A stretch of DNA of 64,000 bases from Gluconacetobacter asukensis (GTDB lineage: Bacteria; Pseudomonadota; Alphaproteobacteria; Acetobacterales; Acetobacteraceae): NCBI RefSeq assembly GCF_014174375.1, contig NZ_JABEQE010000008.1, positions 62,001 through 126,000 of the forward strand, written 5' to 3'. Positions within the stretch are counted from its first letter, which is position 1. Each line of letters begins with the position of its first letter. A program made the position numbers and the translations under genes. The notes beneath the pieces are model-generated. The model did not search any database and had not been told where the DNA came from. It saw only the letters and a program-made list of their open reading frames with translations. Of the stretch, positions 38,778 through 61,465 are shown one piece after another.

Positions 38778-38892
38778 GAGGCCGTTTGCAAAGTGCTGCT
38801 GCCGCCAATCCAACGCGCGTTTGCGGCACTTCGCTGCTTACAGCGCGTGCCGGCCCGCTCCTGCTCGGCATCGACACTTTTCAAACGGCCTC
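38778..38892 (+). repeat. Dispersed 3'-end palindrome family, copy R3
   Basis: The outer arm gaggccgtttgcaaagtg (38778-38795) pairs with cacttttcaaacggcctc (38875-38892), 17 of 18 bases. The interior shares the ccaatccaacgcgcgttt and cacttcgctgcttac stretches with the longer copies. It begins directly after the uppP stop and ends 17 bases before the SGNH hydrolase start. Confidence 0.75.
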
Positions 38893-38909
38893 ATAGCATT
38901 CCGGATATC

Positions 38910-39695
38910 ATGACACGCTCCCTTCGCCCCCTGCTGGCGATCACCGCCCTGCTCGCCCTCGCCGCACCCGCTGCCGCACCGGCCGCAACCGCCAATCTGG
39001 CCGTCGAACAGGTCTCGCGCATGGATACGCCGTGGTGGCACCAGCGCTTCGCCGACAAGCAGGCGGAAATCACCAGCGGCCGTTACGATCTGGTGTGGCT
39101 GGGGGATTCCATCACCCAGAACTGGGAGCGCAACGGGCCGGAGCCCTGGCGCGATTTCGCACCGGTCTGGCAGCATTATTACGGCGACCGGCACGCCATC
39201 AATCTGGGCTTCAAGGGCGACAGCACCTGCCATGTCCTGTGGCGGCTGGCCCATGGCGAACTGGATTTCCGCACTGCGCCACGCCTGTTCGTGGTCATGA
39301 TCGGCGCCAATAATTTCGGCCATGTCCATACCGACGCGGCCCATACCTATCCCGGCATCACCCGCATCGTCGATGCGATCCACGCCCGCTTCCCGACCAC
39401 GCAGATCCTGCTGCTGGAGGTCCTGCCCTCGATCCGCTCGGCCTGGGTCAGCGCGAACACCCGGCAGCTGAACAGCATGCTGGCGGCGGATATCCGCCGG
39501 GGCCGCCCGTGGCTGCACCTGCAGGATGCCGGAGCGGCGGTGGAAGCAAATGGCGCACCCGACCCGTCACGCTTCCTGGACCCGCACCTGACCCCGCCCG
39601 ACCCGCCGCTCCACCCGACGGCGGCTGCACAACAGGACATCGCACGGATCATCGAGCCGACCGTGGCCACGATCCTGGGCGACCACCGCCACTAA
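38910..39695 (+). CDS. Secreted SGNH/GDSL-type hydrolase
   Basis: This protein has 261 residues from the ATG at 38910. A signal peptide (RSLRPLLAITALLALAAPAA) precedes an SGNH fold with the nucleophile in WLGDSITQ (Ser67), block III in MIGANNFGH and block V in DPPLHPTAAA (Asp and His). This family includes acetyl-esterases and platelet-activating-factor acetylhydrolase-like enzymes. The periplasmic or secreted location suggests removal of acyl groups from glycans or lipids. The frame extends upstream through the repeat, but that part is not expected to be coding. Confidence 0.87.
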   Translation: MTRSLRPLLAITALLALAAPAAAPAATANLAVEQVSRMDTPWWHQRFADKQAEITSGRYDLVWLGDSITQNWERNGPEPWRDFAPVWQHYYGDRHAINLGFKGDSTCHVLWRLAHGELDFRTAPRLFVVMIGANNFGHVHTDAAHTYPGITRIVDAIHARFPTTQILLLEVLPSIRSAWVSANTRQLNSMLAADIRRGRPWLHLQDAGAAVEANGAPDPSRFLDPHLTPPDPPLHPTAAAQQDIARIIEPTVATILGDHRH

Positions 39696-39750
39696 GCGGG
39701 CCTGGCTGCACATGCGCGCTGTCGGCGACCCGGCGCGCGTTGCCTGCCAT
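39696..39750 (+). repeat. Dispersed 3'-end palindrome family, partial copy R6
   Basis: This copy starts directly after the SGNH hydrolase stop. It carries the inner hairpin of the family (catgcgcgc ... gcgcgcgttg with a spacer like that of the other copies) but lacks the matching far outer arm. The rest of the gap to 39811 shows nothing else. Confidence 0.5.
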
Positions 39751-39811
39751 CTTGCGCAGGAACAGCTTTTGCAACGATACAGGCTTTCCCCGATCTGATA
39801 TTGTGAAATTT

Positions 39812-41350
39812 ATGTCTCTCCCTCGAGCTTCTACCAGCCGCCTGCGGCTTCGCAAAACCATCCAGCAAATCGAATCCGAGAGCCAGAACCATGGGTTACG
39901 GCGCACCCTTGGCCCCATCCAGCTGATGATGCTGGGTATCGGCTCGACCATCGGCGCCGGAATTTACGTCATGACAGGCACCGCCGCCGCCAATTACGCG
40001 GGCCCGGCCATCCTGCTCTCGTTCCTCGTCGCCGGCCTGGCCTGCCTGTTCACCGCGCTGTCATACGGTGAATTGGCCTCCACGATGCCGGTCTCCGGTT
40101 CGGCCTACAGCTACGCCTATGTCTCGATGGGCGAGGGTGCGGCCTGGGCGGTCGGCTGGCTGCTGCTGCTGGAATATGGCGTGTCCTGCGCCGGCGTGGC
40201 GGCAGGGTTTTCCGGATACGCCACCAGCTTACTTCACGATCTGGGCGTCCATGTGCCCACGTTCCTGAGTACCACCCTGGTCCAGACCTTGCCCACGGCC
40301 CACGGCGCCAGCCTGCTGGTGGCCCCCCGGGTCGATCTGGTGGGCGCCCTGTCGGTGGTCGTGGTCACCGGGCTGCTGGTTCTCGGCATCGAGGAATCCG
40401 CGCGGATCAACACGCTGATCGTGTTCGTGAAGGTCGGCGTGCTGATGCTCTTTCTGATCTTCGGCATCCGCTACGTCCATCCCCACAACCTGCTGCCCTT
40501 CATTCCGCCCAGCGAAGGCGGATTTCATTTCGGGGTGCCCGGCATCTTTCGCGCCGCCTCGGTGATCTTCTTCGCCTATGTGGGGTTCGAGACCGTGTCG
40601 ACCGCCTCGGCCGAAGCCCGCAACCCGAAGCGGGACGTGCCGCTGGGCATCATCGGCTCGCTGGTGTTCTGCACTCTGGTCTATATGTGCGTCGCAACGG
40701 TGCTGATCGGGGTTGTTCCCTTCCGCCAGCTGGGCGTGGCCGATCCTCTGGCCATCGCCGTCGATGCGATCGGCCAGCCCTGGCTGGCGCTGATGATCAA
40801 GGTCGGCGCCGTGGTCGGCCTCTGCTCGGTGATCCTGGGCCTGCTCTATGGCCAGACCCGCGTCTTCTTCACCATCGCCCGCGACGGGCTGCTGCCGCCG
40901 ATCTTCTGCCGCCTGCATCCCACCTTCCGCACGCCGTGGGTCGGGACCATGGTACTGGGCGCGATCGTGGCGGTCGCCACAGCAACCCTGCCGATCGACA
41001 TCATCAGCGACCTGGTCAGCCTGGGCACCGCCGCCGCCTTCGGCATCGTCTGCTTCACGGTCATCTGGCAGCGCAACGCACGGCCCGATCTTCCGCGCCC
41101 CTTCAGCGTGCCGCTCGGGGGCATCCGGATCGGCGGCGTGTGGATCGGCGTGGCGCCGGCGCTGGGCATCCTGTTCTGCCTGATCATGGCCGGCCCGCTG
41201 TTCGTGGACATGGTCCGCGCATTGTTCAACGGCAACCCGCTGCCGATGATCCTGCTGGGCACCTACGTGATACTGGGCATCCTCAGCTACACGCTCTACG
41301 GTCACTCCCACTCGCGCCTGGGCCGGGAAGACAACACGGCAATCATCTGA
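39812..41350 (+). CDS. APC-family amino acid permease (cationic amino acid transporter type)
   Basis: This 512-residue protein has about twelve to fourteen membrane segments. The N-terminal LMMLGIGSTIGAGIYVMTGT is the substrate-binding GxG segment of the APC fold, followed by LSYGELASTMPVSGSAYSYAY and FFAYVGFETVSTASAEARNP, typical of the CAT subfamily. It imports amino acids at the inner membrane. The ATG at 39812 has a weak ribosome site, but the upstream frame holds no family sequence. Its stop codon overlaps the first base of palindrome R1. Confidence 0.9.
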   Translation: MSLPRASTSRLRLRKTIQQIESESQNHGLRRTLGPIQLMMLGIGSTIGAGIYVMTGTAAANYAGPAILLSFLVAGLACLFTALSYGELASTMPVSGSAYSYAYVSMGEGAAWAVGWLLLLEYGVSCAGVAAGFSGYATSLLHDLGVHVPTFLSTTLVQTLPTAHGASLLVAPRVDLVGALSVVVVTGLLVLGIEESARINTLIVFVKVGVLMLFLIFGIRYVHPHNLLPFIPPSEGGFHFGVPGIFRAASVIFFAYVGFETVSTASAEARNPKRDVPLGIIGSLVFCTLVYMCVATVLIGVVPFRQLGVADPLAIAVDAIGQPWLALMIKVGAVVGLCSVILGLLYGQTRVFFTIARDGLLPPIFCRLHPTFRTPWVGTMVLGAIVAVATATLPIDIISDLVSLGTAAAFGIVCFTVIWQRNARPDLPRPFSVPLGGIRIGGVWIGVAPALGILFCLIMAGPLFVDMVRALFNGNPLPMILLGTYVILGILSYTLYGHSHSRLGREDNTAII

Positions 41351-41513
41351 AAGCCTGACCGGAAATGCGCGCTGGTGGCGATCCGACGCGCGTTTCCTGT
41401 GCTTCGCTGCTCACGGCCATCAAGGCCGCTCCGCTGCGATGCTCGGAAACACACGACGGGCGCGCCCCTTCGGGCCGCTCTCGCTCACCAGCCCACATTT
41501 CCGGTCAGGCTTT
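41350..41513 (+). repeat. Dispersed 3'-end palindrome family, full copy R1
   Basis: The outer arms aaagcctgaccggaaatg (41350-41367) and its exact complement (41496-41513) form an 18-bp perfect stem. This extends inward to about 28 bp with two mismatches through gctggtg and caccagc. Inside, ggaaatgcgcg (41361-41371) can instead pair with cgcgcgtttcc (41387-41397), with one G-T wobble. It overlaps the permease stop. About 85% similar to copy R2. Nothing else is seen in the gap up to 41576. Confidence 0.85.
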
Positions 41514-41576
41514 GAGAAACTGATGAATGGCGGGCGGCCGATAAGGCCGCCCCGCTTCAATGCGTGGAGCCTGAAC

Positions 41577-42746
41577 CTACGGTCCGGAGGGGCCGGTATA
41601 GGCCCCCGGCGGGGGCCGATCGATCAGGGGCGCCACCATCAGGGCCTCCTGCCCCGCCAGGGACGAGACATGGGCCAGCCGCTCGCGCGGCAGGGCCTCG
41701 GGACACTCGTCCCGCAGAAAGACGATGATCTTTTCCCGGATCTCGCACCGCAGATCCCAGCTCACCATCGCCGAGCGCGCGCTGGCGATGATCCGCACGG
41801 TCATGACCTGGGCGCTGCAATCGGCCACCTGCACATCGAACACCTTGCCGTCCCACAGAGGGCTGCCATGCACGATCTCACGCAGGCGCACGCGGATACG
41901 GTCCATGGGCGCATGGAAATCGACATACAGGAACACCACGCCGATCAACGCCGCCGAATTATGGGTCCAGTTCTGGAACGGATTTTCCAGGAACCAGGAG
42001 ATCGGCACGATATGCCGCCGCCAGTCCCAGACCCGCAGCACGACATAGGTGGCGGTGATTTCCTCCACCCACGCCCAGTCGCCATTGATGATGATCAGAT
42101 CTTCCATGCGAATCGGCTGCGTCATGGCGATCTGCATGCCCGCGATCAGATTGGTCAGCAGCGGACGGGCCGCCAGGCCGACCACCACGGAGGCCGCGCC
42201 CGCCGACGCAAACAGGCTCAACCCGTATTCCCGCACCGATTCGAACGTCATCAGCGCCGAACCGACCGTCAGCAGCCCGACCAGGATATCCGCCATGCGC
42301 CGCAGCACGCGGACCTGGGTCATGTGGGTACGCAGCAGGATATCGTCGCGATCGTCCTTGCCGGTGATCCGCGCCAGATAGGCATCGGACAGGATGCGCA
42401 TGGCCACGATCGCTGCATAGCCCACCATCAGCACGAACAGCACCAGCAGCCCATGGCCGGCCCATTGCATCGTGCGATAGGAAAAACCGGAAGCCGGCAG
42501 CGCGGTCCCAACGAAGATAATCGCCAGCATCACCCGTGCCGGGCGCTGCATCGCCGTCGTGAACGACCGGACGAACGCGCCCCTCTTCTGTCCCGGAATG
42601 CGCAGGACCAGCTTGGTCATGATCCGGCTGCAGATCTCGGCCATCAGCACCGCCGCGCACAGCATCAGCACCGAGGCCACCGTGGCGGGAAGCCAGTCGA
42701 AGGACTCGCGAATCTGGGTCAGGAGGTCGATGAAGGCGCTTTTCAC
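41577..42746 (-). CDS. MscS-family mechanosensitive channel
   Basis: This 389-residue membrane protein has four to five N-terminal hydrophobic segments. A pore-lining helix and MscS beta domain follow: ASAGAASVVVGLAARPLLTNLIAGMQIAMTQPIRMEDLIII and the GDWAWVEEI strand region. A C-terminal cytosolic part follows. It releases solutes on hypo-osmotic shock. It is a single gene on the minus strand, converging with the permease gene across repeat R1. Confidence 0.9.
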   Translation of the reverse strand: MKSAFIDLLTQIRESFDWLPATVASVLMLCAAVLMAEICSRIMTKLVLRIPGQKRGAFVRSFTTAMQRPARVMLAIIFVGTALPASGFSYRTMQWAGHGLLVLFVLMVGYAAIVAMRILSDAYLARITGKDDRDDILLRTHMTQVRVLRRMADILVGLLTVGSALMTFESVREYGLSLFASAGAASVVVGLAARPLLTNLIAGMQIAMTQPIRMEDLIIINGDWAWVEEITATYVVLRVWDWRRHIVPISWFLENPFQNWTHNSAALIGVVFLYVDFHAPMDRIRVRLREIVHGSPLWDGKVFDVQVADCSAQVMTVRIIASARSAMVSWDLRCEIREKIIVFLRDECPEALPRERLAHVSSLAGQEALMVAPLIDRPPPGAYTGPSGP

Positions 42747-42920
42747 GAATCCGGGTTCACTCTTTCCGTAGGGGCGACGCAGGATGCCAACGGCATGAAT
42801 GGCGTCATATCAATGGGGACGAGGCGCTTCTTTAACCATGATGAGAGCCCTCACTTCAAACACGATCCGTGGGTTGACTTTACCCGGACGGGGCGATATC
42901 TCCCACGTCACCGACACGAT

Positions 42921-42995
42921 GGCGGCGTAGCTCAGCGGTAGAGCAGGGGAATCATAATCCCTTGGTCGGCGGTTCAAATCCGTCCGCCGCTACCA
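42921..42995 (+). tRNA. tRNA-Met (anticodon CAT), elongator type
   Basis: A full cloverleaf of 75 bases including an encoded CCA. Acceptor ggcggcg pairs with cgccgct, with the first pair G-T. D-arm gctc/gagc. Anticodon stem gggga/tccct with loop atcataa. T-arm ggcgg/ccgtc with loop ttcaaat. The sequence resembles elongator rather than initiator tRNA-Met, and the G1-T72 pair is a standard-type wobble. A tRNA-Ile2 (lysidine) reading is less likely from the acceptor sequence. Confidence 0.93.
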
Positions 42996-43031
42996 TCGGT
43001 CGGTCTTCCCATTTTATACAGACAATCCGGC

Positions 43032-43050
43032 AGGCCCGCATGACGGGCCT
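43032..43050 (+). terminator. Terminator after tRNA-Met
   Basis: aggcccg (43032-43038) pairs with cgggcct (43044-43050), followed by TTAG. It lies 37 bases after the tRNA and 28 bases beyond the convergent cytochrome gene, so it may serve both. Confidence 0.6.
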
Positions 43051-43078
43051 TTAGCCGTAATCGTGACGTTCGTCCCGC

Positions 43079-44341
43079 TCAGGATGGCGGGACGGTTGCC
43101 CGGGCAGCGGCGACGTCCTCGGCCGTCACATGACCGACCCGATTCCCGAAATGACCGATGGCATAGTTCGCGATGTCGGCCAGATCCTGGTTGCGATATT
43201 CGGGCCCGAACGCCGGCATGATCATCGCGCCATGCGCGCTCTGCAGCGTCACGCCCTCCACCATGGTCCGGACCAGATTCCGCCCGTCGATCTCACCCAG
43301 GCTGCGCGCCCCCCACAGGGCCGCAAAATCGACCTGCCGCCCATGCCCATCCGTCAGATGGCACCCGGCGCACGCACCGGCGAACAACCGCCCGCCATTG
43401 CTGTGATTCGGGCCCGCCTGGGCAAGAGTCTCCGGTGACACGACGCCAACGGTTTCGTCCGAGCGCCGCGCGGGCAGGCTGCGCAGATAGGTCACCATCG
43501 CCGCGATATCCTCCGGCGTCAGATAGCGCAGGCTGTGGCTGACCACCTCCGCCATCGGCCCCACGGCCGTACCACGCCCGTCGGCATGCCCGGTGGAGAG
43601 GTACGCGGCCAGTTGCGGGTCGCTCCACGCGCCAATGCCGCTATCGACATCCGACGAGATATTATAGGCCAGCCAGCCGTCGATCGGCGCCCCGGCATAG
43701 GATTTCGTCACCGACAGCGCCTGGAGCATGTTGCGGGGCGAGTGGCATTCGCCACAATGGCCCGCGGCATCGACCAGATAGCGCCCCCGGTTCCACGCCG
43801 CCGAACGCCCCGGATCGTCCGCCAACGGCCCCGACGGGCGATAAAGCAGGTTCCACCCGATCATCGCGACGCGGATATTATAGGGAAAGCGCACCTGATT
43901 GGCCGGCGCCGGCGCATGGACCGGTCGCAGGGTCATCAGATAGGCGCGAATGGCGCGAACATCCCCCTCCGTCATCCTGGCATAGGACGCATAGGGCATG
44001 ACGGGATAGAGATGCCGCCAGCCGGGCGCCACGCCGCGACGAACAGCCGCATCGAACTGCGCATCGGTATAGCGCCCGATGCCGGTTTCATGATCCGGGG
44101 TGATATTGGGCGCATAAATGGTACCAATCCCCGGCAGGTCGAACGCGCGCCCCCCGGCGAAGGGAATGCCACCCGGCTTCGTGTGGCAGACCTCGCAATC
44201 CGCCGCCTGTTCCAGATAGGCGCCGCGCCGCGCCAGATCGGCATCCTGCGCCCGCGCCGCAACACAGGTCAGCACCATCCCGGCCAGAACGGCCATGCCG
44301 GCGGCCCGGCGCCCAAGGCGCACCATGGACGGGCGGCTCAT
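43079..44341 (-). CDS. Tri-heme cytochrome c subunit of membrane-bound aldehyde dehydrogenase
   Basis: This 420-residue protein has a signal peptide (about residues 1-32) and three CxxCH heme sites: CEVCH at 49-53, CGECH near 190 and CAGCH near 325. This matches the cytochrome subunit that hands electrons from the molybdopterin subunit to ubiquinone in acetic acid bacteria. Its ATG overlaps the large-subunit stop (44338-44341). It is the last gene of the operon. Confidence 0.9.
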   Translation of the reverse strand: MSRPSMVRLGRRAAGMAVLAGMVLTCVAARAQDADLARRGAYLEQAADCEVCHTKPGGIPFAGGRAFDLPGIGTIYAPNITPDHETGIGRYTDAQFDAAVRRGVAPGWRHLYPVMPYASYARMTEGDVRAIRAYLMTLRPVHAPAPANQVRFPYNIRVAMIGWNLLYRPSGPLADDPGRSAAWNRGRYLVDAAGHCGECHSPRNMLQALSVTKSYAGAPIDGWLAYNISSDVDSGIGAWSDPQLAAYLSTGHADGRGTAVGPMAEVVSHSLRYLTPEDIAAMVTYLRSLPARRSDETVGVVSPETLAQAGPNHSNGGRLFAGACAGCHLTDGHGRQVDFAALWGARSLGEIDGRNLVRTMVEGVTLQSAHGAMIMPAFGPEYRNQDLADIANYAIGHFGNRVGHVTAEDVAAARATVPPS

Positions 44342-46494
44342 GCCTGTGCCCCCGTCAGAGGCAACCGGCGATAGCGCCGGCCGGTGGCAGCGGCCATCGC
44401 ATTGGCGGCCGCTGCGGCGGCCGCGGCCGTCCCGGTCTCACCAATGCCACCCGGGTCCTCGGTGCTGTCGACCAGATGCACTTCGATGGCCGGGGATTCG
44501 TTCATGCGCAGGATCCTGTAGGAATTGAAGTTCTTTTCCTGCACCCGCCCCTTCTCCAGCGTAATCTCGTTGAACAGGGCGGCGCTCAGGCCGAAGATCA
44601 GCCCCCCTTCGATCTGCGACACGACCTGGTCGGGATTGACCACCCGTCCGCAATCGACGGCGACAACGGCACGGCGGACGCGCACGGTGCCCATCTGGGA
44701 GACCTCGACTTCCATCACGGTGGCGAGGTACGAGCCGAAGACATATTGCAGCGCCACACCGCGCCCGACGCCCTCCGGCAGCTTGCTCCCCCACTCCGCC
44801 TTCTCGGCCGCCAGGTCCAGCACCGCACGGGCGCGGGGATGGTCGCCCGTCATGCGGCGGCGGAACTCCACCGGATCGACCTTCGCGCTGGCCGCCAGCT
44901 CGTCGATAAAGCTCTCGATGACGAAGACCCCGCGCGTGCCGCCTACCCCGCGCCACCAGGCGGTCACAACCCCCGGTGCCTCGCGCCGCGCATAATCCAG
45001 GAACATCGCGGGGATCGCATAAGGCGTCTCGACCGTCGCGACCAGCAGATCGTCATCCACACCATTCGGCAACAGCGCCTCGGGCGCCCAGCGCGCAACC
45101 ACCGCCGGCCCGACGATACGATGCGACAGCCCGACCAGTTTACCGTGCGCGTCCAGCCCGCCCACCAGATGGTCGACATAGGCCGGACGATAGCGGTCCA
45201 GCGCCAGATCCTCCTCGCGGCTCCAGACGATCTTGAGCGGATAGGCCACCTGGCGGGCAAACTGCACCGCCTGCGTGACATATTCATGCTCCAGCCGCCG
45301 TCCGAAGCCGCCGCCGATATACTGGTTGTGCAGGAAGACCTTGTCCTTCGGCAGGCCCGTCACCTCGGCCGCCGCATCGCGGGCCCGCATCGGCACCTGG
45401 GTGCCCACCCAGATATCGCATCGCTCGGCCGTCACATGCACGGTGCAGTTGATCGGCTCCATCGGCGCATGTGCCAGCAGCGGCTGCTGATAGACCGCCT
45501 CCACCCGCGTCGCGGCCCCGGCAATGGCCCCCTTGGCGTCGCCCTTGGTGTGGGCGACGATGGCGGGTCCCTGCAGGGCCTCATGCAACCCGCGATAGAC
45601 CGTCTCTGTGGAGACGGTGGAATTGACCCCCTCGTCCCAGGTGATCGCCAGGGCTTCCAGCCCCTTGCGCGTGGCCCAGAAATGGTCACCCACCACACAG
45701 ACCGCGTTGCCGATCGTCAGCACGTCCCGCACGCCGGGAATTTTCCGCGTGGCGCTGTCATCGACATGCAGCAGCACGCCGCCCATCACCGGGCAGGCCG
45801 CGACGGTGCCGAACTTCATGTCCGGTTGCTGGATATCGATGCCGAATGTCGCCGTGCCATTGACCTTGGCCGGCCCGTCCAGCCGATGCTGGGCATGGCC
45901 GATCAGGCGGAAGGTCGACGGATCGCGCAAGGCGACCGGGCTGGTCGGAACCGGCAGGGCAGCGGCCTCGACCGCCAGCTCGCCATAGGTCAGGGTGCGC
46001 CCGGTGGGCACATGGCGCACCACGCCGGCCTCGGTCTGGCACGATGCCGGATCGACCACCCAGCGGTTGGCCGCCGCGCCGACCAGCAGGGTGCGGGCCA
46101 CGGCACCGGCCTCCCGCAGGCTGGTCCAGGTCGCGATCGTCGAGGTCGAACCGCCGGTGGCCTCCGTCCCCAATGCCTTGGTCACATAGGCATCGTCCGG
46201 CGGCGCCGCCTCGATCTGGATCTGGTCCAGCCCCACATCCAGTTCCTCGGCGATCAGCATCGCCTCGCCGGTATAGATCCCCTGCCCCATTTCGACATTC
46301 GGCAGGATCAGCGTGATGCTGCCATCCGGCGCGATCCGCACGAAGGCGTTGGGGGCGAACGGACCAGTCTGGTCCTCGACGATCCGTGTCGCCGCGCGCG
46401 ACCGCTCCAGCGGCACTATCGCCGCCATCAACAGGCCGCCGGCCCCGAGCAGAGCGCGGCGGCGCGAAATCGCAATCGTTCCGACAGGCATCAA
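44338..46494 (-). CDS. Molybdopterin-binding large subunit of aldehyde dehydrogenase (xanthine oxidase family)
   Basis: This 718-residue catalytic subunit resembles IorB-type isoquinoline 1-oxidoreductase and the periplasmic aldehyde dehydrogenase of acetic acid bacteria. A twin-arginine leader ([15 protein letters not shown]) precedes segments such as [32 protein letters not shown] and a C-terminal [18 protein letters not shown], all of which bind the cofactor. It oxidises aldehydes to acids at the outer face of the inner membrane. It overlaps both neighbours by four bases in the order [2Fe-2S]-large-cytochrome. Confidence 0.92.
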
Positions 46495-46946
46495 ACCGCT
46501 CCGGCCACGTTACGGATAGCCGCGCGGATCCGGCGATAGGTGCCGCAACGACAGATATTGCCCGACATCGCCTGGTCGATTTCGTCATCCGAGGGATGCA
46601 GGTTGCTCTTCAGCAGCGCGATGGCCGCCATGATCTGGCCAGGCTGGCAATAGCCGCATTGCACCACATCGATATCCAGCCAGGCCTTCGTGACCTCTGT
46701 CGCCACTTCGTCCTCGGCCAGTCCTTCGATCGTCGTGACCGGCCGGTCGCCCACCAGCGAGGCCGGCAGTGAACAGGCCCGCACGGCCTTGCCATCGACA
46801 TGGACGGTGCAGGCCCCGCATTCGCCGATACCGCAGCCGAATTTCGTGCCCGGCAGCCCCAGGACATCCCGCAGGACCCACAGCAGCGGCATGTCATCGG
46901 GAACATCCACCTGATGCGCCGCGCCGTTTACCTGCAATGTCAGCAT
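46491..46946 (-). CDS. [2Fe-2S] subunit of aldehyde dehydrogenase
   Basis: This 151-residue iron-sulfur protein has a plant-type cluster site [15 protein letters not shown] near 42-56 and a second cluster site made by CGYCQPGQ near 98 and NICRCGTY near 130, as in xanthine-oxidase-family small subunits. No leader is present, so it probably leaves the cell with the Tat-exported large subunit. It is first in the three-gene operon. Confidence 0.93.
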
Positions 46947-47060
46947 ACAAATCCTCCGGACCAGACGAACCGGGTCGCGGACAGGCAGTCACCCGCCAGC
47001 CCGCCGTACCGATATCAGAGCAGTATCGAACCGATCATGCTCCGCCGCCAACCCCTTCGT

Positions 47061-49688: not shown

Positions 49689-49843
49689 CCGTCAACACCT
49701 CTCTGTCATCCCACGCCGAACCATCATGGCATGAGAGTATGACCTTCCGATGGCCGTGGCCCCGCGACGCGGCAACGATCCCTCGCCCGTGCCACTGCCC
49801 CGAAAAAGCATACCGGCTGGTTAGCGGCAACGGCTCCGGCTGG

Positions 49844-50476
49844 TCACGTTATGCTGCCGTTCTGAAACACGGCATCATCCGCGGTGGCTGCCAGCCATGC
49901 CCGGACCTGACCTTCCGGCTCCGGCAGGCCGATGAAGTCGGACACGGCGGAAACGCAGTCCGCCCCCGCCGCGATACAGGACGCGGCGCGCGCCAGCGTA
50001 ATCCCGCCGATGGCCACCAGGGGCACCGACCCGACCAGCCGCTTCCATTCCCCCAGCCGCTCGACGCCCTGCGGCCCCCAGGGCATCTGCTTCAGCTTCG
50101 TCGGCCAGACCGGGCCAAGGGCGACATAGTCGGGGCCGACCGACAGGGCCCGGTCGAGTTCGCCGGTGGAATGGGTGCTCACCCCCAGCCGCAACCCGCC
50201 GGCCCGGATAGCCGCCAGATCGGCGTCGTCCAGATCCTCCTGGCCCAGATGGATGAAATCGATCCCCTCATCCAGCGCCAGTTGCCAGTAATCATTCAGC
50301 ACCAGGCACACGCCATGGCGCGCGGCATACGCTCGGGCAGTGCGGATTTCAGCCAGCAGGGCAGCACCCTCCAGGTCCTTGACCCGCAACTGGATCAGCC
50401 GCGCTCCGGCCCCACCCAGCCGATCGACCCATTCTGCCCGGTCGACGACCGGATAGATCCGCGATGGCAGGCTCAT
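49844..50476 (-). CDS. thiE: Thiamine phosphate synthase
   Basis: ThiE joins HMP-PP with the thiazole phosphate. The 210-residue TIM barrel has [44 protein letters not shown] and VAIGGIT, the family motifs. The start overlaps the thiG stop (ATGA at 50473-50476). It is last in the thiO-thiS-thiG-thiE operon. Confidence 0.94.
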
Positions 50477-51243
50477 GCCAGCACCGCCCGGCCGAGGACG
50501 GGGGTGGATGGCACCGCCATGTCGCGCTGTTCCATCGGGTCGGCGGTGCGGGCGATCAGCCCGGCCTCGACCGCCAGGCGAAACGCCGTCGCCATCCGGG
50601 CCGGATCGCCCGCCTGCGCCACGGCGGTATTGATCAGCACCGCGTCATAGCCCAGTTCCATCGCCTGCGCCGCGTGGGACGGCAGGCCGATCCCCGCATC
50701 CACCACCAGCGGCACATCGGGGAAATGCGCCCGCAATGCCCGCAGGCCGAACACATTGTTCAACCCCTTGCCGGACCCGATCGGCGCCCCCCAGGGCATC
50801 AGCACCTGGCAGCCTGCCCGCAGCAGCCGCTCGGCCCCGACCAGATCCTCGGTCATGTAGGGAAAGACCTTGAACCCGTCCTCGCTCAGGATTCGGGCCG
50901 CCTCGACCAGCGCGAACATGTCGGGCTGCAACGTGTCCGATTCCCCGATGACCTCCAGCTTGATCCAGTCGGTCTCGAAAACCTCGCGTGCCATGTGGGC
51001 GGTCGTCACCGCCTCCTTTACCGTATGGCAGCCGGCGGTATTGGGCAGCACCGGCACGCCAAGGCCACGAATCAGCGACCAGAAGGCCTGCCCGGCGCGG
51101 CTTCCGACCGATTCGCGCCGCAGCGACACCGTCACCACCCCCGCCTGGGCGGCCCGCACGGCATCGGCCAGGATTTCGGGCGACGGATACTGGGCTGTGC
51201 CCAGCATCAGCCGGGATGACAGTTCGGTACCATAGAACAGCAT
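50473..51243 (-). CDS. thiG: Thiazole synthase
   Basis: ThiG forms the thiazole ring from DXP, dehydroglycine and ThiS-thiocarboxylate. The protein has 256 residues. Schiff-base Lys95 lies in [10 protein letters not shown], with [13 protein letters not shown] before it and a phosphate-binding [19 protein letters not shown] after. It starts four bases after thiS and overlaps thiE. Confidence 0.96.
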
Positions 51244-51247
51244 GGGT

Positions 51248-51445
51248 CTATCCCCCCTGCATCGGCGCCAGGATCTCGACCCGCGCGCCCTCGTCCAGCG
51301 TCAATGAACCGCGCCGCGATGCGGGCACGAACGCACCGTTCACCGCCGTCGCGACCCTGGCGTCGCCATAGCCCAGTTCGTCCAGCAGGCCGGCCAAGGT
51401 CGCCGTCGCGATGTCGCGCGGCTCCTCGTTCACCAGTATCCTCAC
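51248..51445 (-). CDS. thiS: Sulfur carrier protein ThiS
   Basis: This 65-residue ubiquitin-like protein ends in Gly-Gly (ILAPMQGG), the site of thiocarboxylation. The start is a GTG at 51445 with GGGAGGA seven bases upstream. It sits between thiO and thiG as usual in the glycine-oxidase version of the pathway. Confidence 0.93.
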
Positions 51446-51493
51446 GTCATTCCTCCCTGCCCCCGCATATCGCCCATCGCCCCGTCGGGAGCG

Positions 51494-52504
51494 TCAGGCG
51501 GCGAGGGCGCCGAACACGATGTCGCCGACCTGCCGCGCCCGCGAGGGCGACAGCAGGAAGCCATGGCGATACATGCCGTTCACAAAGACCGTGCGTCCCT
51601 CAACGGTCACAGCCGGCACATTGTCCGGATAGGCCGGCCGCACGCCAACCCCGGTCTCGACGATTTCGGCTTCGCCGAAGGCCGGATGCAGCACATAGGC
51701 GGCGGTCAGCAGTTCCACCATCGAACGCAGGGTCATGCTCGCGAGACTCTCGCTCTCGACCATCGTTGCCCCCACCATGAACAGATGGTCCGCCCGTGGC
51801 ACGATGTAAACCGGAATACGCGGATGCAGCATGCGGACGGGGCGGTGCAGCGTCACCTCATGGCAGCGCAGCAGCACCATTTCGCCCCGCACGCCGCGCA
51901 GTCCGGTCAACCGGTTTTCGGCAGCGATCCCGGTGCAATCCACCACCCAGTCGGGCCGCGCCCCATGCCACGGATCGCCGGCCATGCGATCGGCCGGCAC
52001 GTTGACCTGGACCGCGCCCCCCAGCGCAATCAGCCGCTCGCGCAACGCCGCCAGGGCCTTGCGAGGGTCGAGATGCCCCTCATCGGGAAAGAACAGTCCC
52101 TTGTCGAATCGGCCGGCCAGATCAGGTTCCAGTTCGGCGATACGCACGCCATCCACGAAATCGAAATGGCTGGTCCGCCGGGAAAATCGGGCGATATCCG
52201 CAACATCGCGCGGCGGCGCCAGGACCAGCGTGCCATTGCGCACCACGTCCGGCACATGGGCGGCCCACCAATCGACCGATTCGATCGAATCGCGCGTCAC
52301 CTCGGGCGGTGCGGATTCGGCCTCGCACCACGGCGCGAGCATGCCGCCCGCCATCCACGATGCCCCAGACCCCTCGCGCCCGCCGATCTCCAGCAACACC
52401 ACGTCGGCGCCGCGTTCGGCCAGCGTCACCGCGCTGGTCAGGCCCGCAACGCCGGCCCCCCGCACCAGAACCCGCGGCCGCGCACCGGTTGCCACCTTCG
52501 TCAT
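51494..52504 (-). CDS. thiO: Glycine oxidase (FAD-dependent)
   Basis: ThiO makes the dehydroglycine (imine) needed for thiazole synthesis. The protein has 336 residues. The dinucleotide-binding start is RVLVRGAGVAGLTSAVTLAERGADVVLLE, and the C-terminal part with GVRPAYPDNVPAV and YRHGFLLSP is typical of ThiO/DadA-type oxidases. The second of two ATGs (52504) is chosen because AGGGAG is eight bases upstream of it. No TPP riboswitch is visible upstream. Confidence 0.9.
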   Translation of the reverse strand: MTKVATGARPRVLVRGAGVAGLTSAVTLAERGADVVLLEIGGREGSGASWMAGGMLAPWCEAESAPPEVTRDSIESVDWWAAHVPDVVRNGTLVLAPPRDVADIARFSRRTSHFDFVDGVRIAELEPDLAGRFDKGLFFPDEGHLDPRKALAALRERLIALGGAVQVNVPADRMAGDPWHGARPDWVVDCTGIAAENRLTGLRGVRGEMVLLRCHEVTLHRPVRMLHPRIPVYIVPRADHLFMVGATMVESESLASMTLRSMVELLTAAYVLHPAFGEAEIVETGVGVRPAYPDNVPAVTVEGRTVFVNGMYRHGFLLSPSRARQVGDIVFGALAA

Positions 52505-52591
52505 GGACATCGCTCCCTTCCCACCACCGGGCAGGCCCGGCGTTTAGCCGGCGAGAGGATGTTGCCTCCAGCGACCGAAGACAACACCCCT

Positions 52592-52756
52592 CGGAGTCTG
52601 ATCGAAAATGCGCGCTGATGGCGATCCGACGCGCGTTTCCTGTGCTCCGATGCTCACGGCCATCAAGGCCGCTCCGCTTCGGTGCTCGAAAACACACGCC
52701 GGCCGTGCCGCTGCGCGGCACTCTCGCTCACCAGCCCCATTTTCGATCAGACTGCG
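52592..52756 (+). repeat. Dispersed 3'-end palindrome family, full copy R2
   Basis: The outer arm gtctgatcgaaaatg (52596-52610) pairs perfectly with cattttcgatcagac (52738-52752). The sequence of the arms differs from copy R1 at three positions on each side, and each change is compensated. The inner part is nearly identical to R1, including cgatccgacgcgcgtttcct and the aaggccgctccgct stretch. It lies 35 bases after the glmS stop and upstream of thiO. The rest of 52505-52790 holds no gene. Confidence 0.85.
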
Positions 52757-52790
52757 AGGGACAGGCCAGAGCCGCCCCCGGGGCAATCGG

Positions 52791-54614
52791 CTATTCGACG
52801 GTGACCGACTTGGCCAGGTTACGCGGCTGGTCCACATCCGTCCCCTTCAGCAGGGCAACTTCATAGGCCAGCATCTGCACCGGAATCGTCTGCAACACCG
52901 GGGCGGTGAATTCGCTCACCGTCGGCAGCGCAACCACGATTTCGGCCAGATCGCGCAGGCGCGGCGCCCCCTGCGTATCGGTGAAGACCAGCAGACGGCC
53001 ACCCCGCGCACGGGCTTCCTGCAGGTTGGAGAGCGTCTTCTCGAACAGCCGGCCCGAGGGCAGCGTGGCCACGATCGGCACCGTGCTGTCGATCAGCGAG
53101 ATGGGGCCATGCTTCATCTCGCCCGCCGCATAGGCCTCGGCATGGATATACGAGACCTCCTTCAGCTTCAGCGCCCCTTCCATGGCCACCGGGAAAGCCG
53201 ATCCGCGCCCCAGATACAGCACGTCGCGGGCCTCGGCGACGACCGCCGCCATCGCGCGGATGGCGGGCGCCTGGTCGAACACCTCGTTCGCACGGCTGGG
53301 CAGGTCCAGCAGTTCGGCCACCAGCTCCTGCTCCTGCGCCAGCGACAGCGTGCCGCGCGCCCGCCCGATCGCAATCGTCAGGCACGCCAGCACCGAAAGC
53401 TGCGCGGTGAAGGCCTTGGTGCTGGCCACCGAGATTTCAGGCCCGGCGACAGTGCCCAGCACAACGTCGCTCTCGCGCGCCATCGTGCTCTGTTCCACAT
53501 TCAGGACCGACACGATGTGCTGCCCGCGCGCCCGCATGCCGCGCAGCGCGGCCAGCGTATCCGCCGTCTCGCCCGACTGCGAGATCAGCAGGCCAAGCCC
53601 GCCCGGCGTCAGCGGCGGATCGCGATAGCGCAGCTCACTGGCCACATCGATATCGACGGGCAGCCCTGCCACCGCTTCCAGCCAGTAGCGGCCGATCAGC
53701 CCGGCATAGAAGGCCGAGCCGCAGGCCGTCACGACCGCGCGGGGCAGCGACGCCAGGTCGAACGGCAGGTCCGGCAGCACAACCTGCCGTGTCGCCGGGT
53801 CGATCAGCCGCTGCAGGGTCTGCCCGATCACCACCGGGTGCTCGTGCAGTTCCTTGTCCATATAGTGGCGATAGCCATCCTTGCCGACCGAACCGGCGAT
53901 CAGCGCGGTGGTGCGCACCGCGCGTTCCACCCGCTCGCCCGAGGCGTCGAAGAATTCCGCGCCCTCCGGCGTCACCATCACCCAGTCGCCATCGTCCAGA
54001 TAGGCGATGCGGCGCGTCAGCGGGGCAAGGGCCAGGCTGTCGGAGCCGAGGAACATCTCGTTCTCGCCATAGCCCACCACCAGCGGCGCCCCATGCCGCG
54101 CGCCGATCAGCAGGTCGTCATGCCCGGCGAAGATCATCGCCAGCGCATAGGCCCCTTCCAGCCGGCGCAGCGTGGCGAACGCCGCCTCGCGCGGCGAGAG
54201 GCCGCGCGACAGATGGAAATCGACCAGTTGCGCTACGGTCTCGCTGTCGGTCTCGGTCACGAAGACGTGGCCCGCCTGCTCCAGCTCCCGCCGCAACGCC
54301 TCGAAATTCTCGATGATGCCGTTATGCACCACCGACACGCGCGGCGTGCCGTGCGGATGGGCATTGTTCTCGGTCGGCGCGCCGTGGGTGGCCCAGCGCG
54401 TATGGCCAATGCCCGTCACCCCGGCCAGCGGCGCGCGCGCCAGCACGGACGCCAGATTGTCCAGCTTGCCGGCCGCCCGGCGCCGTTCGATCCGCCCATC
54501 CACCAGCGTCGCGATGCCGGCGGAATCATATCCGCGATATTCCAGCCGCCGCAAGGCGTCGAAGATGATCGGTGTAGCGTCCCTGCCGCCGACAACGCCG
54601 ACTATGCCACACAT
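52791..54614 (-). CDS. glmS: Glutamine--fructose-6-phosphate aminotransferase (isomerizing)
   Basis: GlmS makes glucosamine 6-phosphate for peptidoglycan and LPS. The protein has 607 residues. The start ATG-Cys at 54614 (MCGIVGVVGG) gives the N-terminal catalytic Cys of the glutaminase domain. Two SIS domains follow (ACGSAFYAGLIGRYW, SQSGETADTL), and the C-terminus ends AKSVTVE. An in-frame extension to 54809 lies inside glmU and is not used. The A of its ATG is the A of the glmU stop (TGATG), so the two genes are coupled. Confidence 0.97.
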   Translation of the reverse strand: MCGIVGVVGGRDATPIIFDALRRLEYRGYDSAGIATLVDGRIERRRAAGKLDNLASVLARAPLAGVTGIGHTRWATHGAPTENNAHPHGTPRVSVVHNGIIENFEALRRELEQAGHVFVTETDSETVAQLVDFHLSRGLSPREAAFATLRRLEGAYALAMIFAGHDDLLIGARHGAPLVVGYGENEMFLGSDSLALAPLTRRIAYLDDGDWVMVTPEGAEFFDASGERVERAVRTTALIAGSVGKDGYRHYMDKELHEHPVVIGQTLQRLIDPATRQVVLPDLPFDLASLPRAVVTACGSAFYAGLIGRYWLEAVAGLPVDIDVASELRYRDPPLTPGGLGLLISQSGETADTLAALRGMRARGQHIVSVLNVEQSTMARESDVVLGTVAGPEISVASTKAFTAQLSVLACLTIAIGRARGTLSLAQEQELVAELLDLPSRANEVFDQAPAIRAMAAVVAEARDVLYLGRGSAFPVAMEGALKLKEVSYIHAEAYAAGEMKHGPISLIDSTVPIVATLPSGRLFEKTLSNLQEARARGGRLLVFTDTQGAPRLRDLAEIVVALPTVSEFTAPVLQTIPVQMLAYEVALLKGTDVDQPRNLAKSVTVE

Positions 54615-56011
54615 CACCCCTGCTCCTTCTTCTTGCGCAGGGCGTCGCGCAGCGCCGCCCCCCGTCCGTCCTTGTTTTCCTGCCGCACGCGCCCGAATGC
54701 CAGCGCGCCGGCCTCCACATTCTCGGTAATAACGCTGCCCGCCGCGATCAGTGCCCCATCGCCGATTGCCACCGGCGCAACCAGGATCGCATCCGAGCCG
54801 ATAAAGCAATCCGCGCCGATCTCGGTACGATGCTTGAACACGCCGTCATAATTGCAGGTGATCGTTCCGGCCCCGACATTGGTTCCGGCGCCGATCGCCG
54901 CATCCCCCAGATAGGTCAGATGGTTAGCCTTCGCCCCGGCACCAAGGGTCGTGCCCTTCAGTTCGACGAAATTGCCCACATGGGCCGCCGCCCCGACATC
55001 GCTGCCCGGCCGCAGCCGCGCATAGGGCCCGATCAGCGCCCCCGGCCCGACCACGCAGCCTTCCAGATGGCTGAAGGCACGGATTTCCGCCCCACGATGC
55101 ACGCGCACCCCCGGCCCGAACACCACATGAGGCTGAACCAGCACATCGGGCTCGAAAACCGTATCGGCCGAGAGAAAGACCGTCTCCGGCGCCACCAGCG
55201 TCACGCCGGCATCCATCGCCGCCGCACGCAGCCGCTTCTGGACGCAGGCCTCGGCCTCGGCCAGTTCGGCACGGGAATTGATGCCGCGCAGCTCGTCCTC
55301 AGGGGCCTCCACCGCGCGGACCTGCTGCCCTTCGGCTACCGCCAGGGCCACCACATCGCCCAGATAATATTCGCCCTGCGCATTGTCGTTGCGCACCATG
55401 GACAGCCAGCGCCGGAAGCTGGCGGCCTCGGCGCACAGCACGCCGGCATTGCATAGGCCGATCGCCCGTTCCTGCTCGCTCGCGTCCGCCCATTCCACGA
55501 TCCGCCGCACCAGCCCGTCCTCGCTGACGATCCGGCCGTAACGGCCCGGGTCACGAGGTCGCATCGCCATCAGCGCCAGCCCGACGCCGGGGGTTGCCCG
55601 GCAGGCCACCAGATTGCGCATGCTCTCGGGCGTGATCAGCGGATTGTCGCCATACAGCACCGCAACATCGCCGTCGCCGAACAGATCGGCCGCCTGGGCG
55701 GCGGCATGGGCCGTGCCCAGCCGGTCGGCCTGCACGACAACCTGATGCGGCGCGGCAAGAGCCGCGACCTGCTCCATGCCCGGCCCGACGACGACCACGA
55801 TCCGGTCGAACACCATGGCCGCGTGATCCAGCAGGTAGCGCAGCATCGGCCGGCCGGCGAGCGGATGCATCACCTTCGGCTGCTCGGATTTCATGCGCGT
55901 TCCCATTCCCGCCGCCAGGATGACGGCCGTGGCGGGACGACGGGCGGCAGGGTCCGCTGGCGTCGCGGACAGAGGCTGGGCATTCATGCCATGCGGGTAG
56001 CGGGCGGGCAT
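54614..56011 (-). CDS. glmU: Bifunctional GlcN-1-P acetyltransferase / UDP-GlcNAc pyrophosphorylase
   Basis: GlmU makes UDP-GlcNAc. The N-terminal uridylyltransferase has VILAAGMGTRMKSEQPKVMH and LYGDNPLI. A left-handed beta-helix acetyltransferase follows, with GPYARLRPGSDVG, HVGNFVELKGTTLG, HLTYLGDA and TITCNYDG. The start is uncertain: ATG at 56011 (chosen), TTG at 56023 or ATG at 55987 are all in frame and none has a well-spaced ribosome site. It precedes glmS with a one-base overlap. Confidence 0.95.
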   Translation of the reverse strand: MPARYPHGMNAQPLSATPADPAARRPATAVILAAGMGTRMKSEQPKVMHPLAGRPMLRYLLDHAAMVFDRIVVVVGPGMEQVAALAAPHQVVVQADRLGTAHAAAQAADLFGDGDVAVLYGDNPLITPESMRNLVACRATPGVGLALMAMRPRDPGRYGRIVSEDGLVRRIVEWADASEQERAIGLCNAGVLCAEAASFRRWLSMVRNDNAQGEYYLGDVVALAVAEGQQVRAVEAPEDELRGINSRAELAEAEACVQKRLRAAAMDAGVTLVAPETVFLSADTVFEPDVLVQPHVVFGPGVRVHRGAEIRAFSHLEGCVVGPGALIGPYARLRPGSDVGAAAHVGNFVELKGTTLGAGAKANHLTYLGDAAIGAGTNVGAGTITCNYDGVFKHRTEIGADCFIGSDAILVAPVAIGDGALIAAGSVITENVEAGALAFGRVRQENKDGRGAALRDALRKKKEQG

Positions 56012-56104
56012 CGGCCCTGTCAAATAAAGGGGTGATCGCAGGCCATCACTTAGGTTTACGAATTACTGCATCCAGGCCGACAGGACCGCTTCCAGGAGAA
56101 GCCC

Positions 56105-56785
56105 ATGCCATCAGACACCCTCCCCCGCCTCGCCGTTTTCGACATGGACGGCACGCTGCTGGACAGCCTGCCGGACCTCGCCGCCAGCGCCGACCGGCTG
56201 CTGAAGGGCTACGGCCTGCCCGGCATCGCGCCGGAGCAGGTGCGCGCCATGGTGGGCGACGGCGTGGCCGCGCTGGTGCGCCGCCTGCTGGCCCACGCCG
56301 GCCCCGAGGCGTCCGCGATCGACACGCAGCAGGCCGTGAAGCGCTACATGGCCGATTACACGCCCCGTTCCACCGAGCAGTCCCGCCTCTTCCCCGGCAC
56401 GGATTACGCGCTGAACACGCTGCGGGCGCAGGGCTGGCGGCTGGCGATCTGCACCAACAAGCCGGTCTCCGCCGCCACACGCATCATCGACGCGCTGGGG
56501 CTGGCGGGCATCTTCGATACGATCGGCGGCGGCGACAGTTTCCCCGCCCGCAAGCCCAACCCCATCCACCTGCTCGGCACCATCCAGCAGGCGCATGGAA
56601 CGCCCATGCGCGCCGTCATGGTCGGCGATCATCACAATGATATCGCGGCCGCCGAAGGAGCCGGCGTCCGCGCGATCTTCGCCCGCTGGGGCTATGGCCG
56701 CCCGGACATGGAAGCCGGCGCGACGGCGGGAGGCGATTCGATCGCCGAAATCCCGCATCTCGCCGACCAGTTAATCCCCGCCTGA
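56105..56785 (+). CDS. gph: Phosphoglycolate phosphatase (HAD family)
   Basis: This 226-residue HAD phosphatase has nucleophile motif FDMDGTLLDSLPDL, then ICTNKP, RKPNPIHLL and MVGDHHNDIAAAEGAG, in the Gph order. It removes phosphate from 2-phosphoglycolate formed during DNA repair. The ATG at 56105 has AGGAGA upstream. Repeat copy R4 begins one base after the stop. Confidence 0.87.
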   Translation: MPSDTLPRLAVFDMDGTLLDSLPDLAASADRLLKGYGLPGIAPEQVRAMVGDGVAALVRRLLAHAGPEASAIDTQQAVKRYMADYTPRSTEQSRLFPGTDYALNTLRAQGWRLAICTNKPVSAATRIIDALGLAGIFDTIGGGDSFPARKPNPIHLLGTIQQAHGTPMRAVMVGDHHNDIAAAEGAGVRAIFARWGYGRPDMEAGATAGGDSIAEIPHLADQLIPA

Positions 56786-56842
56786 GAACCTGTCCGTAAA
56801 TGCGCGCTGGCGGCGAGCCGACGCGCGTTTCCAGTCAGGTTC
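56786..56842 (+). repeat. Dispersed 3'-end palindrome family, short copy R4
   Basis: gaacctg (56786-56792) pairs with caggttc (56836-56842), and the inner aaatgcgcg pairs with cgcgcgttt. The core taaatgcgcgctggcggcg and gccgacgcgcgtttcc match the start of R1. It begins directly after the gph stop. Confidence 0.65.
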
Positions 56843-56860
56843 CGAAGCGCAGGTAACGCC

Positions 56861-57670
56861 TTACGCGGCATCCGGCAGCAGCAGCACCGTCAGGTGCCCG
56901 AGCTTCGGATGGTCGAAGGCGATGCGTACGATCGTCAGCCCGTCGCCCGGCACGTCCTGAAACCAGACCGAGCCGTTGACCGGCTTGCGTGCCGCCGAAT
57001 CCGGCCCATCGGTCTTGCGGAACCCGGCAACCTGCACGTCGCTGAAATCACAGCGCAAGGCCGCCCCCTGATAGGGCTGATGGGAATCGCTCGCCATGTC
57101 CTGCGTGCCGACCGTGTGGGCGTCCATCCGCAGCAGGCGCGCCCCGTCGAACACGGTGGCCGATCCGTCACATTGATGATGGCTCCGCACCGTCTGCTGC
57201 AGCCGCATCAGCGCGCTGAGCGAATCCATCGCCGGCGCCAGATCGGTGGCGGGAATCGGGTCACGACTGGGCTCCGGTGGAGTCTGGAGGGCGATGTGCG
57301 TTTGCCCGCCACTGTAATCCAGCACGACATGCCGGTCCGCCCCGCGCGAATAACCCGCGCTGTCATAGGTCAGCGGCCGCACCCCATCGGGCACGAACCG
57401 CCCCGTCGCCTGGGACGTGATGTTCATGCGCACCAGCAGCCCCAGCAGGCCCCCGCTGCGGATCGTCGACCGCACGGCATAACCGTCCGGCGTCACCGCG
57501 TAGCGCGCGGCAATCGTCAGCGCGCGGAACCCGTGATTATAGACGCCATAGACATGCACGATCTGCGCGGGATCGTTCGCCGCCCGCGCCATGGGCGCCC
57601 ACATGCCAAGCATGGCCGCCAGCACCAGCGCGGGAAATCCCAATACCGGGAATCGACGTGACAGACGCAT
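56861..57670 (-). CDS. DUF3108 domain-containing periplasmic protein
   Basis: This protein has 269 residues from the ATG at 57670, which has GGAGAGC upstream. A signal peptide ends near APMARA. The DUF3108 domain then has YGVYNHGFRALTIAARYAVTPDGYAVRSTI, GRFVPDGVRPLTYDSAGY and a C-terminal TIVRIAFDHPKLGHLTVLLL strand pair. Function is unknown; members are predicted periplasmic beta-rich proteins. It follows gyrB on the same strand after repeat R5. Confidence 0.83.
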   Translation of the reverse strand: MRLSRRFPVLGFPALVLAAMLGMWAPMARAANDPAQIVHVYGVYNHGFRALTIAARYAVTPDGYAVRSTIRSGGLLGLLVRMNITSQATGRFVPDGVRPLTYDSAGYSRGADRHVVLDYSGGQTHIALQTPPEPSRDPIPATDLAPAMDSLSALMRLQQTVRSHHQCDGSATVFDGARLLRMDAHTVGTQDMASDSHQPYQGAALRCDFSDVQVAGFRKTDGPDSAARKPVNGSVWFQDVPGDGLTIVRIAFDHPKLGHLTVLLLPDAA

Positions 57671-57720
57671 CACTGCTCTCCACGAAACGGGGAAAAGGGG
57701 AAGCCAGCCGATGGCGCGGA

Positions 57721-57785
57721 GCCTGACTGGAAATGCGGGCTGGCGAGCGAACGCGCCGCCGCCAGCCCACATTCCGGCCAGGTTC
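57721..57785 (-). repeat. Dispersed 3'-end palindrome family, minimal copy R5
   Basis: gcctgactggaaatgcgggc and the next four bases (57721-57744) pair with gccagcccacattccggcca and the next three (57761-57783), with a few mismatches. It is essentially the two outer arms of the family brought together without the middle. It ends at the gyrB stop codon, so it forms the gyrB 3' end. Confidence 0.75.

Positions 57786-61465
<3,680 letters not shown>

Follow-up and report, generated by a model that had tools for sequence, protein, structure and literature searches.

A 64,000-nt stretch of the 4.39 Mb genome of Gluconacetobacter asukensis (G000, contig C8, positions 62001-126000; hereafter the window) carries several copies of a 162-nt imperfect palindrome, GAGCCTG...CAGGCTC, that is probably a miniature inverted-repeat transposable element (MITE) mobilised in trans by an IS5-type transposase, inserting at TNA sites such as stop codons, retained at gene 3' ends and keeping its arms complementary by copying at the DNA level. 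We directly observed the family itself, its empty orthologous sites, three duplicated stop codons and ends in common with insertion sequences (IS), along with the placement and orientation statistics and the concerted change of the two arms. The tips of the palindrome generally read GAGnCTG...CAGnCTC, and the full 162-nt element folds into a single long interrupted stem with a side hairpin. When compared with shuffled sequences, the folding of the copies behind the permease, glmS and uppP genes (z = -10.2, -6.3 and -5.3, respectively) is not due to chance. The relatives used for comparison include G. takamatsuzukensis (G001), G. diazotrophicus PA1 5 (G003), G. aggeris (G004), G. tumulicola (G007) and G. 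dulcium (G010), with the others given by number.

Insertion sites and IS5-type ends

Orthologous empty sites and stop-codon duplications establish that the element is mobile. In 285 comparisons of element sites with the syntenic stretches of up to ten relatives, where the same sites recur across species, 126 sites were empty, 98 filled and 61 other. Three clean pairs of filled and empty sites each contain a 3-bp duplication that is the gene's own stop codon. Genome G009 reads gtc[TGA]GAAGCTGTTTG...CAAACAGCTTC[TGA]ccggg where G002 has gtcTGAccggg; the prkA copy of the window lies within CGT[TCA]element[TCA]GGCGG, compared to the empty CGTTCAGGCGG in G006 and G011; and the copy at C1:167180 is flanked by TGA and TAA where five relatives have TAA. 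The initial annotation had argued from 3' placement for a role in termination or 3'-end stability rather than random insertion, a contrast that cannot be upheld, as the copies are insertions with empty sites, stop-codon duplications and IS5-type ends.

Most of the stop codons concerned predate the element. Relatives without it mostly keep the stop at gph, gyrB, uppP, the SGNH hydrolase and the permease, and these stops are therefore native; the element as usual supplier of the stop codon was rejected on the same grounds. The gph element is absent in G. dulcium, G005 and G006, which keep the TGA, and the gyrB element is absent in G. dulcium and G005, both with the stop kept. The uppP element is missing in G. 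takamatsuzukensis, G006 and G012, and G. aggeris has a short hairpin only at the site. At the permease, G. tumulicola is filled with a TAA stop and G. aggeris holds a remnant. There are exceptions: in G006 the stop of the SGNH hydrolase lies two codons downstream, and the end of the permease differs in some distant relatives. A called gene ends inside the element in 5 of 52 own-genome clusters and in 1 of 21 from the fresh regions described below, and in such cases the element may supply the stop.

The ends of the element are those of full-length IS in the genus. Copies of an 883-bp IS in G. diazotrophicus and G. takamatsuzukensis end in GAGCCTGTTT...AAACAGGCTC or a close variant, and their target duplications are mostly TNA (TTA, TCA, TAA and TGA), with ATA at one copy. 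The terminal inverted repeats GAGCCTGTTTGGAAA...TTTCCAAACAGGCTC occur both in the IS copies of G. diazotrophicus and in the palindromes C3e and C4a. Transposases of the DDE type (PF01609) were found in all 14 genus genomes. The window has a full-length IS of its own, related to the 883-bp IS, whose open reading frame (ORF) matches PF01609 with E 1.2e-29 and encodes a transposase 96% identical to that of another IS in G. takamatsuzukensis; it is a candidate source of the transposase. We tentatively take the IS group to be IS1031, a name drawn from the TNA duplication and the size, and presumably one with a TNA rule. With ends common to an IS, TNA duplications of the IS type, a length too short for a transposase gene, high copy number and polymorphic insertion, the element is best read from its sequence as a MITE of the IS5-type group.

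Placement and orientation at stop codons

A covariance model built from 49 copies (alignment A2) identified at least 142 copies at E <= 0.001 among 150 candidates scored in the own genome, and a BLAST search with the glmS copy gave at least 52 matching pieces, a few of them partial or self-inverted, with 40 candidates scored. The initial annotation had named most copies lying inside or 5' of genes as an outcome that would refute it, and the own-genome clusters counted below do not show this. Placement was assessed with codon-usage gene calls that were made for this analysis and are not curated, and the P values treat copies as independent. In a contiguous sample of 469.7 kb (C1:1-405,700 plus the window), we found 24 near-full clusters, of which 13 are within 3 nt of a stop (11 exactly at it) and four more have an upstream gene that ends inside the element. 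All own-genome sequence sampled first gave 33 of 52 clusters within 3 nt of a stop. Before 20 fresh regions were read, we set a forecast that at least 50% of clusters would lie within 3 nt and that at least 80% of those would have the element 5' end at the stop. The forecast held, with 15 of 21 clusters within 3 nt and the 5' end at the stop in 15 of 15, in regions that are top-scoring model matches and not a random sample. Over the own genome as a whole, a stop is found no more than 3 nt away from 48 of 73 clusters, bearing out the consistent 3' placement noted in the initial annotation, and the element 5' end faces the stop in 44 of those 48 (44:4, being 29:4 plus 15:0).

To what extent the target rule accounts for this can be judged from the TNA sites themselves. 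Non-coding TNA sites, stops included, lie at stops in 333 of 2720 cases (12.2%), or 17.4% without the 100 nt before starts, and P ranges from 5e-5 to 5e-10 for nulls of 12.2-17.4%. When only TNA sites at a stop or in the 60 nt beyond it are considered, the stop itself makes up 48-58%. As a control, full IS copies lie at stops in 4 of 25 cases (Fisher P 0.007 compared to the contiguous sample and 2e-5 compared to all), although another species and IS-rich regions supplied most of these copies, and the gene calls behind two of the four stop calls are weak. The 25 were taken from 30 full-length IS rows, dropping four repeats of counted sites and one mis-bounded row. The relatives' own copies, which are partly orthologous to those of G. 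asukensis and were not pooled for P, gave 24 of 36 clusters within 3 nt and an orientation of 22:2, and outside the genus 6 of 12 clusters are within 3 nt of a stop, 6 of 6 with the 5' end there. Stops used by 33 abutting copies are 23 TGA, 5 TAA and 5 TAG, compared to a genome usage of 247, 58 and 45. Four copies away from stops (glmS, C1:124279, C1:284064 and C3b:2737) are antisense to their neighbours.

Target choice and tolerance explain much of this placement. Since TNA includes TGA and TAA, placement alone is no proof of a role in termination or mRNA stability, although the residual excess at stops and the strand bias leave room for a possible role of this kind.

Concerted change of the paired arms and competing readings

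The two arms of the element change together. In alignment A2, 96.9% of cells hold standard pairs and 35 of 52 pairs have two-sided changes, values that shuffles never reach, and structures slid along the same alignment are 36-44% paired. Covariation of this kind is usually read as evidence of functional RNA. Between orthologous copies (about 40 species-pair comparisons, several of one site), we counted 135 pairs changed on both sides and still paired, 12 changed on both sides and unpaired, and another 203 with a change on one side only. With the structure slid on the same copies, two-sided paired changes numbered 12 and 14 instead of 135.

Two sites are informative about how the arms change. 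At C1:124472, two genomes with 98% flank identity differ by 11 two-sided changes and no one-sided change. With zero mismatches, the new arm is found in G. tumulicola only as both arms of that element, so that gene conversion from another copy was rejected as its source. If one mismatch is allowed, a further place appears in G. tumulicola and a single one in both G008 and G009, and the arm occurs alone, as an exact match, in G006; chance matches to a reversed control pattern are equally numerous. At C1:276587 in G. asukensis and G. tumulicola, about 18 nt from the end of the host gene, stop included, are repeated in inverted orientation in the far arm. This copy is absent from the empty site in G. 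aggeris, and a TAA-to-TAG difference in G. asukensis is mirrored in the inverted arm copy. Both events fit replication template switching between the arms of the palindrome, a process that PMC8794818, in its available text, describes for RNA hairpins. The changing outer arms at C1:149423 were rejected as proof of templating, as that site can be accounted for by tandem copies exchanging sequence.

The kind of one-sided change helps to separate selection on RNA from copying of DNA. Between orthologues, one-sided changes left 48 G-U and 44 A-C mismatches, and the outer stem of 49 paralogues has 13 G-U and 32 A-C. In inner stems, relatives' copies without one conserved U.G pair have 22 G-U and 51 A-C. 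A G-U excess indicative of strand-specific selection on an RNA fold was looked for in the one-sided changes, and none was found beyond this one pair. Covariation and joint arm changes thus fit DNA-level arm copying better than RNA selection. If so, covariation as the usual proof of a functional RNA can also come from the copying of palindrome arms, for which the G-U versus A-C count is a cheap check.

In the mechanism that we propose, a non-autonomous and almost wholly self-complementary element would be moved in trans by IS5-type transposases that act on the same ends. It would insert at TNA, and at TGA or TAA, which are TNA sites, the stop would be duplicated on both sides and the gene would keep its full length. 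Copies would persist chiefly at gene 3' ends, where they may do the least harm or some good, and mostly be lost elsewhere. Each copy would place a long hairpin after the coding part of the mRNA, as the first ~160 nt of the 3' untranslated region (UTR), and a hairpin in this position might hinder 3' exonucleases or influence whatever lies downstream, as reportedly seen for the YPAL elements of Yersinia. The arms would be kept complementary chiefly by template copying between them and not by selection on RNA. The TNA rule and its duplication would make stop codons safe landing sites and turn parasitic palindromes into ready-made 3' UTR hairpins. A bolder version, in which a transposable hairpin family that inserts into and duplicates the stop on a near-constant strand serves the whole genus as a portable 3' cap through much of its complement of a hundred or more copies per genome, with stems paired by template switching and covariation coming from mutation, is a tentative idea that we would not favour at present.

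Several observations weigh against the proposed mechanism. The glmS insertion shows no TNA duplication when compared with the empty sites of G. tumulicola and G. aggeris, where a short palindrome occupies the position (CCCCGGGGGG, CCCTGCAGGG), and matching flanking 3-mers remain in just 12 of 58 single copies, all of them TNA (a count attained by 31 of 2000 shuffles). TAG falls outside the TNA rule but is the stop next to 5 of the 33 abutting copies and 2 of the 15 from the fresh regions; these stops may have changed after insertion. Copies near a stop are at the stop itself in 13 of 17 cases in the contiguous sample and 15 of 17 in the fresh regions, where about half is expected, and closeness to 3' ends together with the TNA rule therefore explains much, not all, of the exactness. 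The strand bias is the one feature not expected under neutral retention or under a symmetric TNA rule, and it is the best reason to look for a function. With respect to the arms, no host flank was copied beyond the ends in 74 cases at score >=9, and arm capture was seen in one event, making host-flank capture into arms rare. The prkA copy compared to G. takamatsuzukensis has nine broken pairs and two two-sided paired changes, and the permease copies of G. asukensis and G. tumulicola differ by three broken pairs with no two-sided change. Inner stems of the 49 copies show 56 G-U to 14 A-C, or 17:14 without the conserved U.G pair, and that pair is the kind of feature that RNA selection would give.

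The last points bear directly on a reading of the element as a domesticated 3'-end RNA device, whose hairpin shields the 3' ends of mRNA or acts as a transcription block and in which selection maintains the stop position, the sense orientation and the pairing. It would account for the 48 of 73 placement and the 44:4 orientation as well as for the 35 of 52 pairs with two-sided changes, the 96.9% of paired cells, the stable folds and the conserved U.G pair, and the copy at C1:294730 is also filled in G001, G004, G005, G007 and G010. We nevertheless consider it unlikely: more G-U than A-C is predicted, and the counts are 48:44, 13:32 and, without one pair, 17:14; T-runs are few; close species differ in insertions at the same genes; and the four copies away from stops named above are antisense to their neighbours. 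Natural gene pairs that differ in the presence of the hairpin between close relatives, whose gyrB genes are 94-98% identical, allow its effect on mRNA to be tested. An ordinary intrinsic terminator was rejected, in line with the scarcity of T-runs pointed out in the initial annotation, as only 5 of 106 near-full copies of the own genome and relatives have TTTT no more than 12 nt from their 3' end.

The strand bias would instead be an insertion bias if the transposase or an accessory factor recognised TGA in one direction and hit stops directly. Consistent with this, the left 3-mer, read in the orientation of the element, is TCA in 4 of 58 single copies compared to TGA in 24 (confounded by the many TGA that are the stops themselves), 3 of 4 clean empty-site cases are at stops, and the out-of-genus copies within 3 nt of a stop have the same orientation (6 of the 12, 6 of 6). 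However, the stops used match genome usage (23 TGA, 5 TAA and 5 TAG), which is unexpected if TGA is required, and full IS copies use TTA, TAA, TCA and TGA, leaving this a possible but doubtful explanation. Palindromic, dispersed and extragenic copies, at times in tandem arrays of up to five, also recall a repetitive extragenic palindromic (REP) or bacterial interspersed mosaic element (BIME) system moved by a REP-associated tyrosine (RAYT, or Y1) transposase. That origin is very improbable. At E <= 0.001, PF01797 was found in 0 of 14 genus genomes and 0 of 8 other family genomes, with 5 of 14 control genomes matched, and the lack of a match in the genus contradicts RAYT-driven REPs; in addition, no GTAG or CGTC tag was seen in the consensus by inspection, and the element is four times the length of a REP. 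The proposed IS5-type MITE therefore remains the reading we prefer.

Copies in the window, known repeats and spread

All seven places where the initial annotation had noted related elements hold them, four being full or near-full, two short and one decayed, and an eighth copy was not in its list (Table 1). In an Rfam search, carried out on the window only and at gathering score, the element was unmatched and a tRNA was the sole match. At the gyrB stop of G. takamatsuzukensis, a clearly different palindromic stretch occupies the same position and may represent a second, independent insertion at a single stop codon.

Table 1. Palindrome copies and the IS5-type insertion sequence in the window (window positions)
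Feature	Position	Strand	Description
Permease copy	41351-41512	+	Full 162 nt, directly 3' of stop TGA 41348-41350; TGA also after far end
glmS copy	52594-52754	+	Full element; 36 nt from glmS stop, antisense to glmS
uppP copy	38778-38892	+	115-nt variant directly 3' of uppP stop TAA
prkA copy	25084-25249	-	Diverged full element (profile E 3e-16); 5' end abuts prkA stop (TCA on + strand); TCA...TCA flanks
gph copy	56786-56842	+	Short hairpin form, middle missing, directly 3' of gph stop TGA
gyrB copy	57720-57785	.	Short form without middle, abuts gyrB stop TCA 57786-57788
SGNH hydrolase copy	about 39698-39747	+	Decayed; after stop TAA; 5' part alone scores, E 1.2e-4
Eighth copy	19558-19607	-	5' fragment abutting stop of called gene 19604-20059(-)
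IS5-type insertion sequence	1915-2811	+	Full-length, 897 bp; ends GAGCCTGTTTTAGAATG...CATTATCAAACGGACTC; flanks TTA/TCA; ORF 1969-2793

Two sites outside the window are also of note. At C1:293324-293490 of G. asukensis (L015:13324-13490), a GC-rich terminator hairpin is followed immediately by an element. In G005 the usual T-run stands at this position, and the element therefore replaced the run or landed in it. The copy at C1:294734-294895 (L015:14734-14895) is at a site filled in G. asukensis, G. takamatsuzukensis, G. aggeris, G005, G. tumulicola and G. dulcium, and appears within a called gene in G. asukensis, although the gene call is doubtful.

Palindromic MITEs and 3'-placed repeats are already known. 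For the YPAL elements of Yersinia, work by De Gregorio in 2006 reportedly found insertion close to stop codons, raising transcript levels. According to the available text of PMC2229807, YPAL (or RU-2) is 168 bp long, not A+T-rich, dispersed and provided with inverted repeats, with both empty and filled sites; its targets span or adjoin dyad symmetry, duplications are 3-26 bp and the inverted repeats are internal. Compared by description only, our element is similar in size, a composition that is not A+T-rich, inverted repeats, dispersal, empty and filled sites and targets at or beside dyad symmetry, but it differs from what that text describes in its 3-bp TNA duplication, IS5-type ends at the very tips, and arms that are variable but matched. 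REPs, in the portion of PMC3733652 available to us, are 20-40 bp long with a tagged tetranucleotide, those with GTAG being associated with RAYT and the CGTC repeats missing in Acetobacteraceae; like these GTAG- and CGTC-tagged palindromes, the element is extragenic, in high copy and in some cases grouped. It also resembles the RUP, BOX and SPRITE repeats of Streptococcus, likewise compared by description only, in being a small interspersed chromosomal repeat (PMC3049150, in its available text). Similar to IS5-family MITEs, it is short and non-coding, and a full IS of the genus has the same ends and target duplication, but unlike the usual ones its body is nearly all self-complementary, one end faces the stop, and arm positions are hypervariable yet paired. 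Integron attC sites likewise fold and lie at gene 3' ends, with arms that vary yet stay complementary, whereas the hosts of the Gluconacetobacter element are ordinary genes (gyrB, glmS and prkA). To our knowledge, stop-codon docking has not been described for RUP, BOX or SPRITE repeats, and we know of no earlier element with IS5-type ends that occurs throughout a genus and docks, usually in the same orientation, on the stop itself; this oriented, stop-docking form appears new. Among the papers listed in a literature search, none dealt with such an element in Gluconacetobacter, judging from title or abstract start, with partial coverage that is no proof of absence.

The family extends beyond G. 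asukensis. A single-copy BLAST query matched 14 of 14 genus genomes. Elsewhere in the family 5 of 22 genomes matched, and in other families of the class 0 of 24 did. Scanning for a 24-nt core without mismatch gave, among the matches listed, Endobacter, an Acidisphaera metagenome-assembled genome (MAG), two further MAGs and one Novosphingobium, and the covariance model matches full length in 10 of 10 of those out-of-genus loci. The full-length model match in Novosphingobium sp. ST904 (L238:7668-7811), which belongs to another order, suggests horizontal spread or an old family. Head-to-tail arrays of up to five elements occur. In G. dulcium, five palindromes are arranged head-to-tail behind one gene (about C6:39599-40305), and relatives have fewer copies at this site, so that arrays expand and contract.

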